64,000 nt of DNA from Burkholderiales bacterium (GCA_003241965.1 QBMB01000006.1:21351-85350); one strand, 5' to 3'. Shown: positions 1 to 7,284, counted from the first letter of the stretch. The notes: generated from the letters alone by a model not told the origin. Numbers and translations: made by a program.

Positions 1-294
1 GGCATTGCTGTTGCCGATCGCGGTGCTCGTGCCGACACCGGCGCCTGCGCTCACCGCACCGCGCTGGTTCACACCCACGCCCACACCCAACGGCCCGACA
101 CCCGTGCTGACGCCGGCATTCACACCGCCGGAGCCCAAGCCCACACCGATGGAGAAGGGCCCCACCGGGATACCGATACCCACGCCCGCCGAACAACCGG
201 TGAGCAAGGCGCCTACGCAGACCGAGGCCAGCCAGCCGGTGGCACGGCGGGTGTGGCGCACGAACGGCTTCTGAGAGGGGGGAGCAGTGTTCAA
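1..294 (-). CDS. Glycine/valine-rich lipoprotein-like protein, partial (runs off left edge)
   Basis: Reverse-strand translation reads ...MKPF-like N-term 'KPFVRHTRRATGWLASVCVGALLTGCSAGVGIGIPVGPFSIGVGLGSGG...' with a lipobox (LLTGC) and GVGVGV repeats; no in-frame ATG, likely TTG start near 294. Confidence 0.6.
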   Translation of the reverse strand, partial: MNTAPPSQKPFVRHTRRATGWLASVCVGALLTGCSAGVGIGIPVGPFSIGVGLGSGGVNAGVSTGVGPLGVGVGVNQRGAVSAGAGVGTSTAIGNSNA

Positions 295-402: not shown

Positions 403-1359
403 TCACGCCGGGTCTTTTCCCAGGCGCTCCATCGCATCGGCCAGCCAGTCGGCGCGCAGTGCATCCGGGGCGGCGGGGCGCACCAGCCAGCCCCCCTGCG
501 CTGGTGTCACGCGGGCGTTGCCCGCCTGCCAGAGCAGCCAGGCCAGCCAGGCGCATTGCGGTGCGGTGGGCGTCTCGCCCGCTGGCGACACGAGCAGCGC
601 GGTGAACACAGTGGCGTTGGCCACCAGCACCCCGTCGCCACTGACCTCGCCGCCCACCGAGCGCGCCAGCGCCAGCAGGGCAGAGCCCTCCTCACCGGGT
701 GGGCCGAGCGCCTGCAGGGCATCGCGCAGGTGCGCCGCAATGACCGCGCCGCGCTGGGCTTCGGCCTGCAGCAGATCGGCGTGGTCCCACCGGTTCCAGT
801 CCACCATGGGCTCGGCACCGCCCACCGCGCGTGCAGCTTCGGCGTACCGGTACAGCGCCTGCTCATGGCCGCCGGCGTGCACGGCTGAGCCCACCATGAG
901 CAAAGCGGCGAGGCGGTTGGCCAGCAAGCGGCTCTGCTGGGCCAGCAGGCGCTCGCGCATCAGGCCATCGCGTTCGCTGCGCAAGGCCGCGAGCTCCAGC
1001 GCGTTCTTCAGGTCGGCGCGCAGGCTTTCCAGTTCCCACGGCTTGTTGATGTAGCGGTAGATCTCACCGGTGTTGATGGCCTCGATGGCGTCCCCCAGCT
1101 CCGAGTAAGCGGTGGTCAGCATGCGCACGATGCCGGGGTAGTACTCGCGGGCATGGCGCAGCAGTTCGTTGCCGCGCTCGCCGGGCATGCGCTGGTCGCA
1201 CACCAGCACGGCCACGTCGGCGCCGTGGGCCAGCAGCACCGCGCGGCCTTCTTCCACCGAGCCGGCGGTGAGCACGGGCGCCAGTGGGCTGACCAGGCGC
1301 TCGAAATACTTCAGCGCCATGGCCTCGTCGTCCACATACAGGATTTTCGTGGGTGTCAT
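403..1359 (-). CDS. phcQ: Response regulator (REC N-terminus), PhcQ-like
   Basis: KILYVDDEAMALKYF...LVCDQRMPGERGNELL...YRYINKPWE REC signature; fourth gene of a phcBSRQ-ordered operon. Confidence 0.72.
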   Translation of the reverse strand: MTPTKILYVDDEAMALKYFERLVSPLAPVLTAGSVEEGRAVLLAHGADVAVLVCDQRMPGERGNELLRHAREYYPGIVRMLTTAYSELGDAIEAINTGEIYRYINKPWELESLRADLKNALELAALRSERDGLMRERLLAQQSRLLANRLAALLMVGSAVHAGGHEQALYRYAEAARAVGGAEPMVDWNRWDHADLLQAEAQRGAVIAAHLRDALQALGPPGEEGSALLALARSVGGEVSGDGVLVANATVFTALLVSPAGETPTAPQCAWLAWLLWQAGNARVTPAQGGWLVRPAAPDALRADWLADAMERLGKDPA

Positions 1360-1367
1360 CGGGTCTC

Positions 1368-2564
1368 CTAGACCGGGGTGTCGTCAGGCGACGGTGGGAA
1401 ATAGAGGGTCACGTTCGTGCCCTGGCCCAGGGTGGAATGCACGGTGATGTCGCCACCCAGAGAGCTCATGACCCGCTGACAAAACAGCAGGCCCATGCCC
1501 GTGCCCCCGCTATCGGCCCGTGTGGTCACCGATTCTCGCGTCAGGCGCCGGAGCACGTCGGGCGCGATGCCGGGGCCATTGTCGGACACGCGCACGGCCG
1601 GCTGGGGACTCAGGCCCGCTGCCAGGGCGACCCGATCAAGCGTGATGCACACCTCGGGCTGCTGAGGCGGTTGGGCACGCAGGGCGATCAAGGCGTTCTT
1701 GACCAGCGTGCACAGCACGAGGTAGAGCAGATCGCGCCGACCGGGCAGCGTGAAGTCGGCCGACAGATCGGCCGACAACCAGCTGGACTCGTTGGATTCG
1801 AAGGGGTATTCGTCCTGCACCGCGCGCACGAGTTCGCTGGCGAGCAGGCTGGCCGAAGTGTCGCCCTGGCTGGCGTCGCGCGCGGTCTGCACGAAGGTGG
1901 AGACCAGCGACTGCGCGTACTCCGCGCGCCGCTGCGCCGCCTCGATCATGAACAGCACATCACCCGGCTTCTGCTGGGCAATGTGGGCCATGCCGTCGCC
2001 GCCCTGCGGATCGGCCTGGTGGTTCTCGCGCATGGCCGAGAGGTAGCCGCGCACCGTGGCCAGCGGCGAGGTGACTTCGTGGGCCAGAAAACCCAGCGTC
2101 TCCCGCAGCGCCGATTCACGCCGCGCGATCAGCGACTGGTCGCGCGAGCGGCGCACGCTCGTCGCCAGCGCTTCGCGCAGCGCCTGGCGGGTGAGCGCGT
2201 CGTCCAAGGGCTTCTCCAGGATGTGCTCCACATGGCCCTGGTTCACGGCCGACATGGCCACATCCTTGTCCGCATAGGCGGACACCAGCAACCGCGCCAC
2301 ATGCGGATAGAGCCGGCGCACTTCACCGAGCAGGGCCACCCCATCGCGCTGCGGCATCGCGTAGTCGGTGAGCAGCACGGCAACTTCGTGGCCCCGCTCG
2401 CCGAGCAGGACCAGCGCCTCATCCACGCTGGCCGCGGTCAACACCGTGAACTCCTTGCCGTACAGGCGCGCAAACCACTTGCAGGCCTGGGGCTCGTCGT
2501 CCACCATCAGGATCGCGTGAGGGCTCAGAGAGCCTCGCGCCACAGCGGGGTCGTGCGGCTTCAT
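1368..2564 (-). CDS. phcR: REC-histidine kinase fusion, PhcR-like
   Basis: N-terminal REC (ILMVDDEPQACKWF...LLTDYAMPQRDGV) fused to HisKA/HATPase (FLAHEVTSPLATVRGYL...VSDNGPGIAPDVL...GGTGMGLLFCQRVM); overlaps upstream gene by 4 nt. Confidence 0.78.
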   Translation of the reverse strand: MKPHDPAVARGSLSPHAILMVDDEPQACKWFARLYGKEFTVLTAASVDEALVLLGERGHEVAVLLTDYAMPQRDGVALLGEVRRLYPHVARLLVSAYADKDVAMSAVNQGHVEHILEKPLDDALTRQALREALATSVRRSRDQSLIARRESALRETLGFLAHEVTSPLATVRGYLSAMRENHQADPQGGDGMAHIAQQKPGDVLFMIEAAQRRAEYAQSLVSTFVQTARDASQGDTSASLLASELVRAVQDEYPFESNESSWLSADLSADFTLPGRRDLLYLVLCTLVKNALIALRAQPPQQPEVCITLDRVALAAGLSPQPAVRVSDNGPGIAPDVLRRLTRESVTTRADSGGTGMGLLFCQRVMSSLGGDITVHSTLGQGTNVTLYFPPSPDDTPV

Positions 2565-3892
2565 GCGGGTCTGGGCAAGTCAAAGGTGAATTCGGTCCAG
2601 GCGCCAAACTCACTGTCCACGACCAGCGTGCCGCCGTGGCGCTGCACGATGCCGTAGCTCACGCTCAGGCCCAGGCCGAGTCCGGCACCGACATCGCGCG
2701 TGGTGAAAAACGGCTCGAACACACGGCCCAGGTTCTCGGGCGCAATGCCCGAACCGTTGTCGCGCACGGACACGAACAAGCGCAGATCGCGCTGCACCAC
2801 GGTCACTGCGATGCGGGGATGATCGCGCCGCGCCGCTTGCAGGGCATGGGCCGCGTTGCTCAGCAGGTTGATCAGCACGCCGATGATGGCGGGCTCGTCG
2901 CCGAGCACATGGGTGTCTTGCGGCAATTCCAGCGGCACCTCGATGCCCTTGAGTTCGTAGCCGGCCAGGCGCAAGGCGGAGCGCAGCGCATTGCCCAGCA
3001 GGAAGGGACGCTGGGCGTCCTGGCCTGGCTTCTGATACGCGAAGGTCTTCAGGTCGGAGACGATGTTCTGGATGCGCTGCATGCCCTCGCGCGCATCGTC
3101 CAGGCTTTCCTTGAGCATGGCATCCCCCGCCACCCCCGGGCAGGTCAGGCCCATGTCGATCGCCATCAGGCTGTAGTTCACCGGGTTGTTGAGTTCGTGC
3201 AGCAGCCCGGCCGAGAGCGTGCCGATGGCGGCCATCTTCTCGCGCTGGATCAGCTGGCCCTTGACCTCGGCGAGCGTGGTGTTGATCTCGCGCAGGGAGG
3301 CGTTTTTCTCCGACACCTCGTGCTGCAACTCGAACAGGCGGATGCGGGCCTTTTCATTGAACCAGGTGCACACCGCGCTGGCGCCGGCCGAGAACAGGAT
3401 GAACAGCGAGTTCGTCACCACGCGCGAGGTGTCTTCGGCCGCATCGGGGTGCAGGGAACAGGCCGACACGTACAGGACCAAGGTGAGCACACCGAAGCCC
3501 ACACCTTCAAAGAAGCTGATGGGCAGGATGATGCCCACCGCATACAGCGCCAGGTGCAGCCCCACGAAGTAGATCGATTCGGCACCATCGGTGTCGAAAA
3601 TCATGAAGGCGATCATGATCTGCGGCAGCAGCAGCCAGAGCATGGTGAGCGAGCGCACGTGCTTGCGCCCGAACGGCGTGAACAGCACAAAGAACACGCC
3701 CAGCGTGAGCGCGGCCACGGCCACGCGCAGCACCGAGAACTGCAGCAGGCGGTCGGGGTAGGAAAAATAGTCGAGGCCGAAACCGGCCAGCACCAGCACG
3801 ATGGAGGTGATGCTGCCGGCCTTGCTGTAGGTCAACCGGAAGTCCGAGAGCTGCTGCTCGTAAGGCGAACTCGACCGGCTAACCATTTTCAA
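2561..3892 (-). CDS. phcS: Membrane sensor histidine kinase, PhcS-like
   Basis: Multiple hydrophobic segments then H-box LSAGLLHELNNPVNYSL and HATPase VSVRDNGSGIAPENLGRVFEPFFTTRDVGAGLGLGLSVSYGI. Confidence 0.78.
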   Translation of the reverse strand: MKMVSRSSSPYEQQLSDFRLTYSKAGSITSIVLVLAGFGLDYFSYPDRLLQFSVLRVAVAALTLGVFFVLFTPFGRKHVRSLTMLWLLLPQIMIAFMIFDTDGAESIYFVGLHLALYAVGIILPISFFEGVGFGVLTLVLYVSACSLHPDAAEDTSRVVTNSLFILFSAGASAVCTWFNEKARIRLFELQHEVSEKNASLREINTTLAEVKGQLIQREKMAAIGTLSAGLLHELNNPVNYSLMAIDMGLTCPGVAGDAMLKESLDDAREGMQRIQNIVSDLKTFAYQKPGQDAQRPFLLGNALRSALRLAGYELKGIEVPLELPQDTHVLGDEPAIIGVLINLLSNAAHALQAARRDHPRIAVTVVQRDLRLFVSVRDNGSGIAPENLGRVFEPFFTTRDVGAGLGLGLSVSYGIVQRHGGTLVVDSEFGAWTEFTFDLPRPA

Positions 3893-5411
3893 GCGCCATC
3901 GCTTTCAGGCGCGCGTTGACCACCAGCTCGGCAAAGATGTTCACCCCGGTGGGGTCGGTGTAGAGCGTCACCGGTGCATCGACCTCTTCCAGCACCACAC
4001 GCATCTGCGCCTCGTCGCGGTAGATCAGGTGCCATTCCAGCAGGTGCTCCATGCCGAAGCGCTCCGGGTTGTCGGAATGCACGTTGGTCACCAGCAGGTG
4101 GGCGCCGGGGTTGCTGCGCGACATGAAGTAGCGGATCAGGCGCGTGCACACCTTGTCCGACAAATAGTCGAACAAACCTGCGCAATAGATGGTGTCGAAC
4201 CCTTGGCCTTCCGCGGGCGCGGTGTCGCGCGTGGCTCGCTTGAGCAGTTCGTGCACCGACTCCTGCACATAGGTCACATCGACCTTCACGCCATGTGTGG
4301 CTGCGGCCTCTTCAATTTTCTGCTGTGTGTACTTCAGCGTCTCCAGGCTGAAGTCGATCAGGGTGAACTTCAGGCGCGAGAGGTCCACACCGGTGGCGAT
4401 CAGTTTCTGGATCTCCACACCGGGACCACAACCCACGTTGAGCACGCGCACAACGCGCTCCTGCGCAGCAGCGTCATCCGCCGCCTTTTTCAGGAAATCC
4501 ACCAGGATGTCGATGCGGTTGCGGTGCGCCACGGCCACCGCGGCCTTCAGGAACATCGCGTTGACCAGCTGGATGTAGGTGCTGCTGCCCTGACGCGGGT
4601 CGCCCAGGATCTGGTTGACCATCTCGTAGTCGCCCGCGTAGCCCAGCGGCTTGGCAAAGGTGCGGTACACGAAGGGAGCGCGCAGCAGCAGCGGATGCAG
4701 TGCAGTCTGGGCGTAGGCACGGTGCAGCAACGAGTCTTCAGCGGGCAGCTGCGAGGCCTCCTCTTCCAGCCTCACCAGGAACTCCTTGCCCTTGAGCATC
4801 AAAGGCTCGGCGATGGCCTCGAACACGTCGTCGGTGAGGCGCCCGGCGCTGTCGCGCGGGAGCGAGTCCACCATGTCGGCCTGGTCGATCCAGCGCGCGG
4901 TCTCCGAGAGAAATGCCCGGAACTCGCTGATGGTGACCTGGTAGCTCTGCTTGATCTTGAAGCGCGACTCCCAGTCGGCCACGAAGCGGCTGGCCTCGTC
5001 GCGCACCTGGCGCACATCGCCGCGGATGGCGTTGAGGTCGGACCACTCATCGATGAGGGCCACCGACACCACCGCCATCAGCCCGGTGTTGAGCAGGCTC
5101 ACCACCACGGCCTTGCCCTTGTAGATGATGCGGTCGCCAGAGCGGATGGTGAGCTCGGCCAGCACCTCACTCACCTGCACGATGGAATACGGGTTGTAGA
5201 TCTCTATCACCAGCGAGCGTCGTTGCAGGCTCGTCAAGGTGCCGCGGGCGCTCTCTCCCTGGCTGTTGCGAAAGGTGACGACGTGGTCGAATGGGCGCTG
5301 AAGGTACACGGTGTGGGCGGTTGAGTGCGTGGGGGAACCTGTGCTTTGCAACATTCCTGAATAAACCCCCCGGGGCACAGTGTAGTCAACAGCTTTGCCC
5401 CACTTGCGCAA
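3879..5411 (-). CDS. phcB: SAM-dependent methyltransferase with N-terminal PilZ-like domain, PhcB-like (3-hydroxy fatty acid methyl ester synthase)
   Basis: Class I methyltransferase motif VVRVLNVGCGPGVEIQKLI; N-terminal beta-rich region; first gene of a four-gene overlapping operon with kinase, REC-kinase and REC genes. Confidence 0.75.
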   Translation of the reverse strand: MRKWGKAVDYTVPRGVYSGMLQSTGSPTHSTAHTVYLQRPFDHVVTFRNSQGESARGTLTSLQRRSLVIEIYNPYSIVQVSEVLAELTIRSGDRIIYKGKAVVVSLLNTGLMAVVSVALIDEWSDLNAIRGDVRQVRDEASRFVADWESRFKIKQSYQVTISEFRAFLSETARWIDQADMVDSLPRDSAGRLTDDVFEAIAEPLMLKGKEFLVRLEEEASQLPAEDSLLHRAYAQTALHPLLLRAPFVYRTFAKPLGYAGDYEMVNQILGDPRQGSSTYIQLVNAMFLKAAVAVAHRNRIDILVDFLKKAADDAAAQERVVRVLNVGCGPGVEIQKLIATGVDLSRLKFTLIDFSLETLKYTQQKIEEAAATHGVKVDVTYVQESVHELLKRATRDTAPAEGQGFDTIYCAGLFDYLSDKVCTRLIRYFMSRSNPGAHLLVTNVHSDNPERFGMEHLLEWHLIYRDEAQMRVVLEEVDAPVTLYTDPTGVNIFAELVVNARLKAMALENG

Positions 5412-5421
5412 AGTCAGTCGC

Positions 5422-7284
5422 TCACAACAACAGGGCGTTCACACGCTTGACATACGCCGCCGGATCGTCTGGCAGGCCGCCCTCGGCCAGCAGCGCCTGG
5501 TCGAACAGGATGTGCGCGAGATCGTCGAAGTGCGCGCTGCTCTCCAGCTTCTTCACCAGCGGGTGTTCGGCGTTCACCTCGAGGATCGGCTTGGCCTCAG
5601 GCGCGGGCTGGCCGGCCTGCTTGAGCATGCGGGCCAGCTGGGTGGAGAGGTCGCCGTCTTCCACCACCAGGCAGGCAGGAGAGTCCACCAGGCGCGAGGT
5701 GACGCGCACATCTTTGGCCTTGTCCTTCAGGCTTTCCTTCAGGCGCTCCAGCACCGGCTTGAACACCTCGGCCGCGGCTTCAGCGGCCTTCTTCTCGTCT
5801 TCGTCCTGCAGGGCACCGAGGTCCACCGCACCCTTGGCCACGCTCTGCAGCGGCGTGCCCTCGAACTCGGTGAGGAAGCTCAAGGCCCACTCGTCCACGC
5901 GGTCGGTCATCAAGAGCACCTCGATGCCCTTCTTGCGGAACACCTCCAGCTGCGGGCTGTTCTTCGCGGCGGCCAGGCTGTCGGCGGTGATGAAGTAGAT
6001 CGTGGCCTGGCCGTCCTTCATGCGGGCCTTGTAGTCGGCGAGGGACACCATCTCCGAACCCTGGGTGCTGGCAAAGCGCAGCAGCTTGGCCAGCTTGTCG
6101 CGGTTGGCGAAGTCCTCACCCAGGCCTTCCTTCAGCACGGCGCCAAAGGCGGCGTAGAAGCCGGTGTACTTCTCCACATCCTTGCTCATGTCGTCCAGCA
6201 GGGTCAGCACGCGGCGCGTGTTGCCTTCGCGGATCGCCTTCACGTCGCGGCTTTCCTGCAGCAGTTCACGGCTCACGTTGAGCGGCAGGTCGGCCGAGTC
6301 CACCACGCCCTTGACCCAGCGCAGGTAGGCCGGCATGAGGGCCTCGGCCTCGTCCATGATGAAGACGCGCTTCACATACAGCTTGATGCCGGCCTTGCGG
6401 TCGCGGTTCCAGAGGTCCTGCGGCGCCTTGGACGGGATATAGAGCAGTTGGGTGTATTCGGTGCTGCCCTCCACCCGGTTGTGGCTCCAGGCCAGCGGGG
6501 CTTCGGTGTCGTAGCTCAGGTTCTTGTAGAACTCGGCGTACTGTTCGTCGCTGATGTCCTTCTTGCTGCGCGCCCACAGCGCGTTGGCCGAGTTCACCGC
6601 TTCCCACTCGTCCTGCTTCACGTAGGCGCTCTTCTCGGCGTCCCACTCCTCTTTCTGCATCAGGATCGGCAGGCTGATGTGGTCGGAGTACTTGGCGATG
6701 ATGGACTTGAGCTTCCAGCGGTCGAGGTAGTCGCTGGCGTCGTCGCGCAGGTGCAGCGTGACGCTGGTGCCACGCGCGGTGCGCTCGATGGTCTCCACCT
6801 CGAAGTCGCCGGTGCCACCACTGGACCAGCGAACACCTTCGGCCGCAGGCAGGCCCGCACGGCGCGACTCCACGGTGATCTTGTCGGCCACGATGAAGCC
6901 GGAGTAGAAGCCCACGCCGAACTGGCCGATGAGCTGGGCGTCCTGCTTCTGGTCACCGCTCAGGTGGCTCATGAAGTCCTTCGTGCCGCTCTTGGCAATG
7001 GTGCCCAGGTGGTCGATGGCCTCCTGCGCGCTCATGCCGATGCCGTTGTCGGTGATGGTGATGGTGCGGGCCTCGGTGTCGAAGGCCACGCGCACGTCCA
7101 GGTTGGGCGCGTCTTCGAACAGGGCTGCGTTGTTCAGTCCCTCAAACCGCAGCTTGTCGCAGGCGTCCGATGCGTTGGAAACCAGCTCGCGCAGAAAGAT
7201 CTCGGGGTTGGAGTACAGCGAATGGGTGACCAGGTGCAGCAGTTGTGACACTTCGGCCTGGAACGACAGGGTTTGTTTGCTCAT
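5422..7284 (-). CDS. htpG: Molecular chaperone HtpG (Hsp90)
   Basis: [48 protein letters not shown]...; full-length Hsp90 family. Confidence 0.98.

Follow-up and report, generated by a model that had tools for sequence, protein, structure and literature searches.

The Phc quorum-sensing system of the plant-pathogenic Ralstonia solanacearum species complex (RSSC) consists of the genes phcBSRQ together with phcA, and its signals are methyl 3-hydroxypalmitate (3-OH-PAME) and methyl 3-hydroxymyristate (3-OH-MAME). The agr system of Staphylococcus and the ComQXP system of Bacillus combine a variable signal-making gene and receptor sensor half with a conserved kinase backbone; their signals are peptides and their hosts are Gram-positive, while Phc has a fatty-acid methyltransferase and a polytopic sensor of proteobacterial type. 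The comparison with agr has been drawn in a study that describes balancing selection on phcB and phcS in the RSSC (PMC6580516), where two PhcB/PhcS groups match the two esters and PhcR and PhcQ follow the phylotype (PMC8578825). Thus, synthase/sensor polymorphism within the RSSC is already known, and so is phcBSRQ outside Ralstonia, as the genes have been published for Cupriavidus (PMC2864759, PMC2842291). A 2023 survey of phc genes across Betaproteobacteria names Hydrogenophaga, and its text holds no discussion of systems lacking PhcA (PMC10653808). Here, we describe a phcBSRQ locus in a stretch of 64,000 nucleotides (nt) from a Burkholderiales bacterium (GCA_003241965.1, QBMB01000006.1:21351-85350), the whole of which is called the window below. 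We consider it probable, at about 0.75, that the locus is a Hydrogenophaga phcBSRQ quorum-sensing module in which a block made of the PhcB catalytic region plus the PhcS sensor recombines onto a conserved backbone, and that its output is independent of PhcA.

Four minus-strand genes at 403-5354 (5411 with a TTG start) were found to be phcQ-phcR-phcS-phcB, lying on contig C144 of a 4.89 Mb genome that is 99.97% complete. The host belongs to the environmental genus Hydrogenophaga; over the 12 kb that were compared, the second contig of a congener shows complete identity to a plasmid of Hydrogenophaga sp. PBL-H3. The features of the locus are as follows.

3879..5354, minus strand: phcB, S-adenosylmethionine (SAM)-dependent methyltransferase, 491 amino acids (aa); ATG start, domain match, orthology
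5052..5285, minus strand: predicted N-terminal six-stranded beta-barrel domain of PhcB, aa 24-101, outside the exchanged block; AlphaFold2 model
3269..5033, minus strand: putative exchangeable signal-synthase/sensor block, PhcB aa ~108 to the end plus PhcS aa 1 to ~206; breakpoints of the window genome versus G001, the left edge differing among pairs
2561..3886, minus strand: phcS, membrane histidine kinase, 441 aa, phospho-acceptor H230; domain match, orthology
3365..3733, minus strand: hydrophobic transmembrane sensor stretches of PhcS, aa 52-174; hydropathy scan
1368..2564, minus strand: phcR, receiver (D67) fused to a histidine kinase (H162), 398 aa; domain match, orthology
403..1359, minus strand: phcQ, receiver (D55) plus a C-terminal domain of unknown fold, without a DNA-binding domain, 318 aa; domain match, fold search
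5422..7284, minus strand: htpG, directly upstream with a 67-nt gap to phcB, used as the backbone control
1..262, minus strand: small glycine-rich lipoprotein-like gene, the 3' neighbour, cut by the window edge; kept downstream of phcQ in several congeners

The four minus-strand open reading frames, the 14-nt and 4-nt overlaps, the domain set and the H-box HELNNPVNY given in a preliminary description of the locus were all verified, and only the starts of phcB and phcS were refined. With the earlier starts, the frames lie at 3879-5411 (phcB, TTG), 2561-3892 (phcS, TTG), 1368-2564 (phcR, ATG) and 403-1359 (phcQ, ATG), so that phcB and phcS overlap by 14 nt, phcS and phcR overlap by 4 nt and a gap of 8 nt separates phcR from phcQ. 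As relatives have in-frame stops upstream and codon scoring agrees, the ATG starts at 5354 (phcB) and 3886 (phcS) are favoured, the TTG at 5411 being less likely, and the phcB/phcS overlap would then be 8 nt. Pfam and NCBIfam assign a methyltransferase to PhcB, HisKA and HATPase to PhcS, REC, HisKA and HATPase to PhcR and REC to PhcQ; neither database holds a model specific to PhcB, PhcS, PhcR or PhcQ, and only generic methyltransferase and kinase models matched. The H, N and G boxes of PhcS are all intact, and PhcS H230 (the phospho-acceptor of the H-box), PhcR D67 and H162, and PhcQ D55 are invariant across 25 Hydrogenophaga species.

The homology check with Ralstonia-type PhcB, PhcS, PhcR and PhcQ pointed to exactly the genes that had been proposed, with identities of about 57, 54, 42 and 46%, far ahead of any paralogue. 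The window genes were the top full-length matches genome-wide for PhcS (E 6e-147 vs 9e-25 at the next locus), PhcR (5e-75 vs 2e-25) and PhcQ (9e-66 vs 2e-21), margins of 44 to 122 orders of magnitude, and the second-best matches of the PhcR and PhcQ queries were the partner genes of the operon itself. PhcB of the window is 51-58% identical to PhcB of all 16 genomes of Ralstonia (55-58%) and its sister genus g168 (51%), while SAM methyltransferases other than PhcB stay below 30%. The identities to Cupriavidus are about 60, 56, 39 and 45% for B, S, R and Q, and the Phc proteins of C. metallidurans and C. pinatubonensis JMP134 are orthologues as well (PhcB about 58-60%, PhcS about 56%). The methyltransferase is thus nearest to PhcB and the kinases do not group elsewhere, which supports the orthology of the window genes with phcBSRQ; gene number, order and domains are like those of the RSSC.

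A profile scan of named genomes matched Paraburkholderia, Cupriavidus, Janthinobacterium and Pseudoduganella, with the B-S-(R)-Q order in the best 80 loci. The distribution of phcB is patchy, with 10 real matches in 399 evenly drawn Burkholderiales genomes vs 27 of 35 congeners. Judged from the order common to these 80 best named relatives and from the presence of phcB in the congeners, the gene arrangement is far beyond chance. A phcBSRQ-type operon was also seen on the Paraburkholderia graminis plasmid pPHS1_P (NZ_CP024936.1, L037), which is conjugative by PLSDB typing. The description of the locus as lying outside the classical Ralstonia context therefore holds for Hydrogenophaga but is not new, since Cupriavidus has been published and Hydrogenophaga already named.

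PhcA was sought with the Cupriavidus protein, taken from its known site beside fur (PMC2864759). It was not found in the window genome, where the best LysR protein is 28% identical, nor in 35 congeners, where no LysR protein exceeds 33%; orthologues of PhcA elsewhere are 67-99% identical. Among 25 phcB-bearing genomes tested, true PhcA (83-98%) was present only in seven Cupriavidus-type genomes and was not found in those of Paraburkholderia, Janthinobacterium, Pseudoduganella or other genera, and 300 genomes of the Cupriavidus/Ralstonia family contained it in 3 of 25 genera (Cupriavidus, Ralstonia and one related genus). As orthologues turned up in these three genera only, the known output is missing in Hydrogenophaga. 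The search for a PhcA-like LysR regulator suggested in the preliminary description thus failed, and a complete Ralstonia-type pathway is not supported. The phcBSRQ module commonly occurs without PhcA. In Cupriavidus, unlike in the window genome, PhcA is present beside fur, about 25 genes from phcBSRQ (PMC2864759). The Ralstonia-type genomes G547 (contig C21) and G555 (contig C26) have partial PhcA frames only, as might be expected of spontaneous phenotype-conversion lineages.

It might be supposed that the Phc system is complete and that another diverged LysR protein took the role of PhcA; the phospho-relay proteins are indeed all intact, and several LysR proteins of the genome reach 28-30% identity to PhcA. 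However, such values represent ordinary LysR-level similarity, well below that of PhcA orthologues, and no LysR gene conserved beside the operon was found in ten Hydrogenophaga genomes, which makes the substitution unlikely. No conserved neighbour replacing PhcA is universal around the operon in the same ten genomes. A flippase-like membrane protein and a 2OG-Fe(II) oxygenase-like protein (assigned by eye) lie beside phc in three congeners (L174:3546-5429, L175:11529-13384, L177:4527-6401); their positions differ and their occurrence is sporadic.

An output through a second signalling system was also weighed. Hydrogenophaga has an LqsA-type alpha-hydroxyketone autoinducer synthase (NF005526, above cut-off; G000:C170, L306:14-1183 and neighbours, and L302), which adjoins a receiver protein and an LqsS-like kinase and lies about 40 kb from phc in several congeners. 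The Lqs system of Legionella and PhcX of Ralstonia (LqsR family) represent a separate quorum-sensing system with a REC regulator and a kinase, which is co-resident in the Hydrogenophaga genome and differs from Phc in having an alpha-hydroxyketone synthase and no PhcB. Leaving the phc operon aside, the protein of this genome closest to the kinase domain of PhcR is the LqsS-like kinase (G000:C170:2225-2911), which hints that parts of the two systems share an origin. In Ralstonia, the LqsR orthologue PhcX adjoins phc (PMC10653808). Both this adjacency and the PhcR/LqsS-like kinship, as well as the distance of about 40 kb, would suit a PhcBSRQ module that feeds the Lqs-type system and shares its response regulator and kinase. 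Yet neither PhcX nor LqsR was found beside phc in the window genome, the only match to PhcX being about 150 residues at 30% identity in the REC protein of the lqs-type cluster elsewhere. We therefore regard this coupling, like the LysR substitution, as having a small chance of being correct.

A property that the preliminary description does not mention, a mosaic structure, emerged from the comparison of Hydrogenophaga species (genomes and loci of the comparison set carry G- and L-numbers). In seven close species, HtpG is 94-98%, the PhcS kinase half 88-97%, PhcR 81-94% and PhcQ 80-96% identical, whereas three types can be told apart by PhcB and the membrane part of PhcS, with identities between types of only 61-72% and 48-56%, respectively. 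The window's own genome and G001, for example, are 96% identical in HtpG, 96% in PhcQ, 85% in PhcR and 92% in the PhcS kinase but only 61% in PhcB and 50% in the PhcS sensor. The segment from PhcB residue ~105 to PhcS residue ~206, just before the H-box, behaves as a single unit of exchange that varies independently of htpG, PhcR, PhcQ and the kinase half of PhcS; the blocks of species whose HtpG is 94-98% identical have an identity of just 50-60%. Across 19 genomes, the distances of the two parts of the block, PhcB-C and PhcS-N, correlate with each other (r 0.89; partial r 0.88 given HtpG, p=2e-4) but only weakly with HtpG (r 0.27 and 0.21), while those of PhcB-N, PhcS-C, PhcR and PhcQ follow HtpG (r 0.71-0.85). 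For 10 of the 11 mosaic pairs, which come from three genera, two-breakpoint fits put the right edge at PhcS 204-212, some 20-25 residues before the phospho-histidine; the exception is the Cupriavidus pair L066-L062, with the edge at PhcS 168. The block edges lie near domain borders, as the PhcB barrel ends at residue 101 in the structural model. Assembly chimerism was rejected as the cause because G001, G024, G025, G005, G007 and G022 are genomes of 1-3 contigs and the mosaic is seen in Cupriavidus isolates as well.

The same mosaic pattern was found in Cupriavidus and Ralstonia. Cupriavidus has three block types; a metagenome-assembled genome of this genus and C. gilardii are 99, 97 and 94% identical in the kinase half, PhcR and PhcQ but 69 and 53% in PhcB-C and PhcS-N, and the block of the former resembles that of Paraburkholderia (79 and 78%). 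Two strains labelled C. basilensis have different block types. In Ralstonia there are two types, between which PhcB-N is 97%, PhcB-C 65-68%, PhcS-N 44-48% and the kinase half 92-96% identical. Janthinobacterium, which served as the negative control of the method, showed no decoupling (block r 0.95-0.98 with other blocks). Compared with the RSSC, Hydrogenophaga has many more block types, and edges near domain borders are shown here across species and genera.

Rapid divergence of the block in place, with the synthase and sensor co-evolving under diversifying selection and no recombination, would account for the concentration of amino-acid change in the parts of functional specificity, and balancing selection on phcB and phcS is reported within the RSSC (PMC6580516). 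However, synonymous differences are doubled within the block as well (about 0.6 vs about 0.3 outside; for G024 and G014, 0.55/0.54 in the block vs 0.14 and 0.17 in the PhcB N-domain and the kinase half, respectively). Moreover, the block trees join G001 with G025 and G024 with G017, contrary to the backbone, and approximately unbiased (AU) tests reject the alternative groupings (p 1e-11 to 8e-5). Nor can in-place divergence explain why the block of G001 is 83-87% like that of a species that differs widely in PhcQ from G001's own clade (only about 70% alike), so we give this explanation little weight. The idea that PhcB has another substrate and that the operon encodes a two-component sensor of the ordinary kind, which would fit the generic Pfam/NCBIfam matches, is least probable of all, given the full-length identity of 51-61% to Ralstonia and Cupriavidus PhcB (other SAM methyltransferases below 30%) and the co-variation of synthase and sensor expected of a ligand-receptor pair.

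By homology with Ralstonia, the product of PhcB is most likely a diffusible methyl ester, made by methylation of a 3-hydroxy fatty acid; the membrane-spanning part of PhcS would sense this ester, and the PhcS kinase would pass phosphate to PhcQ (core) and PhcR (accessory). Since PhcA is absent, the response must leave PhcQ and PhcR by another route. All loci examined have PhcQ, but PhcR is reduced to its receiver in 24 loci of the Paraburkholderia type (within L037-L061) and absent in L054, L077 and L110; this fits the Ralstonia mutant data that name PhcQ as the main output contributor (PMC8578825), a role it may also have in Hydrogenophaga. The matches of PhcQ in the Protein Data Bank (PDB) are essentially confined to the receiver. 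The catalytic region of PhcB and the sensor region of PhcS would make up a single specificity block, inherited together and recombined as a whole, so that related species carry different signal-receptor types ("pherotypes"). That the types stand for different or mutually unrecognised signals is what we infer from the co-variation and from the match of two groups to two esters in Ralstonia (PMC8578825). At the cut-offs used, the block types of Hydrogenophaga number from 8 (by PhcB-C) to 12 (by PhcS-N), which suggests 8-12 signal "dialects" in this genus.

Several points weigh against the recombining, PhcA-independent module. The groups for the AU tests were picked after inspecting the identities, and the left edge, which is near PhcB 105-109 in the cleanest pairs, spans 66-176 or wider overall and is not sharp. 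Within one type, G024 and G017 differ at a proportion of 0.54 of synonymous (pS) but 0.01 of nonsynonymous sites (pN), the protein being nearly fixed; because of this high synonymous divergence, the block types must be old, and recent donor-recipient transfer is not shown. The Ralstonia genomes were identified as such from their PhcA (about 75-77% identical to that of Cupriavidus) and from phcA-phcB linkage (phcB about 15 kb from phcA). C. metallidurans has a Phc system yet no extractable 3-OH-PAME (PMC2864759). Finally, without PhcA the module could be partly vestigial, though the conserved phospho-residues argue otherwise.

The N-terminal six-stranded barrel of PhcB was modelled with medium confidence (predicted local distance difference test, pLDDT, about 60-73). 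It lies outside the exchanged block, is conserved and has no Pfam match. Its six strands suggested a PilZ-like identity, but this was supported neither by Pfam (E up to 10) nor by a PDB fold search with the whole PhcB model, in which the top matches were methyltransferases. The adaptive PhcB substitution R22C, which lies outside the methyltransferase domain (PMC6989110), may map to this barrel. No terminator-like site was found in the 67-nt gap between htpG and phcB. The glycine-rich lipoprotein-like gene is counted here as a neighbour and not as a member of the phc system.

As expected of a polymorphic locus, synthase and sensor parts vary together and are swapped against a backbone that stays conserved. 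A broader proposition is that phc in Hydrogenophaga, Cupriavidus and Ralstonia is such a locus, with about a dozen old, mutually non-recognising types in one genus, block recombination between the conserved PhcB N-domain and the PhcS kinase core, frequency-dependent selection, and PhcA-independent PhcQ output in most host genera; we advance it tentatively, at somewhat below even odds. The literature searched, which took in few subscription journals, contained no report of block exchange between species and genera, of edges close to domain borders or of a widespread lack of PhcA.

Work on Phc has been confined almost entirely to Ralstonia and to its role in controlling PhcA. If most phcBSRQ-bearing genera of Burkholderiales lack PhcA, this regulator may have joined the pathway late and need not be the ancestral output. 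The recombining block points to where the residues of signal specificity may lie, in PhcB after about aa 105 and in PhcS before aa 206, and it supplies natural chimeras. It also suggests that quorum sensing by fatty-acid methyl esters has, like the peptide systems, split into dialects.

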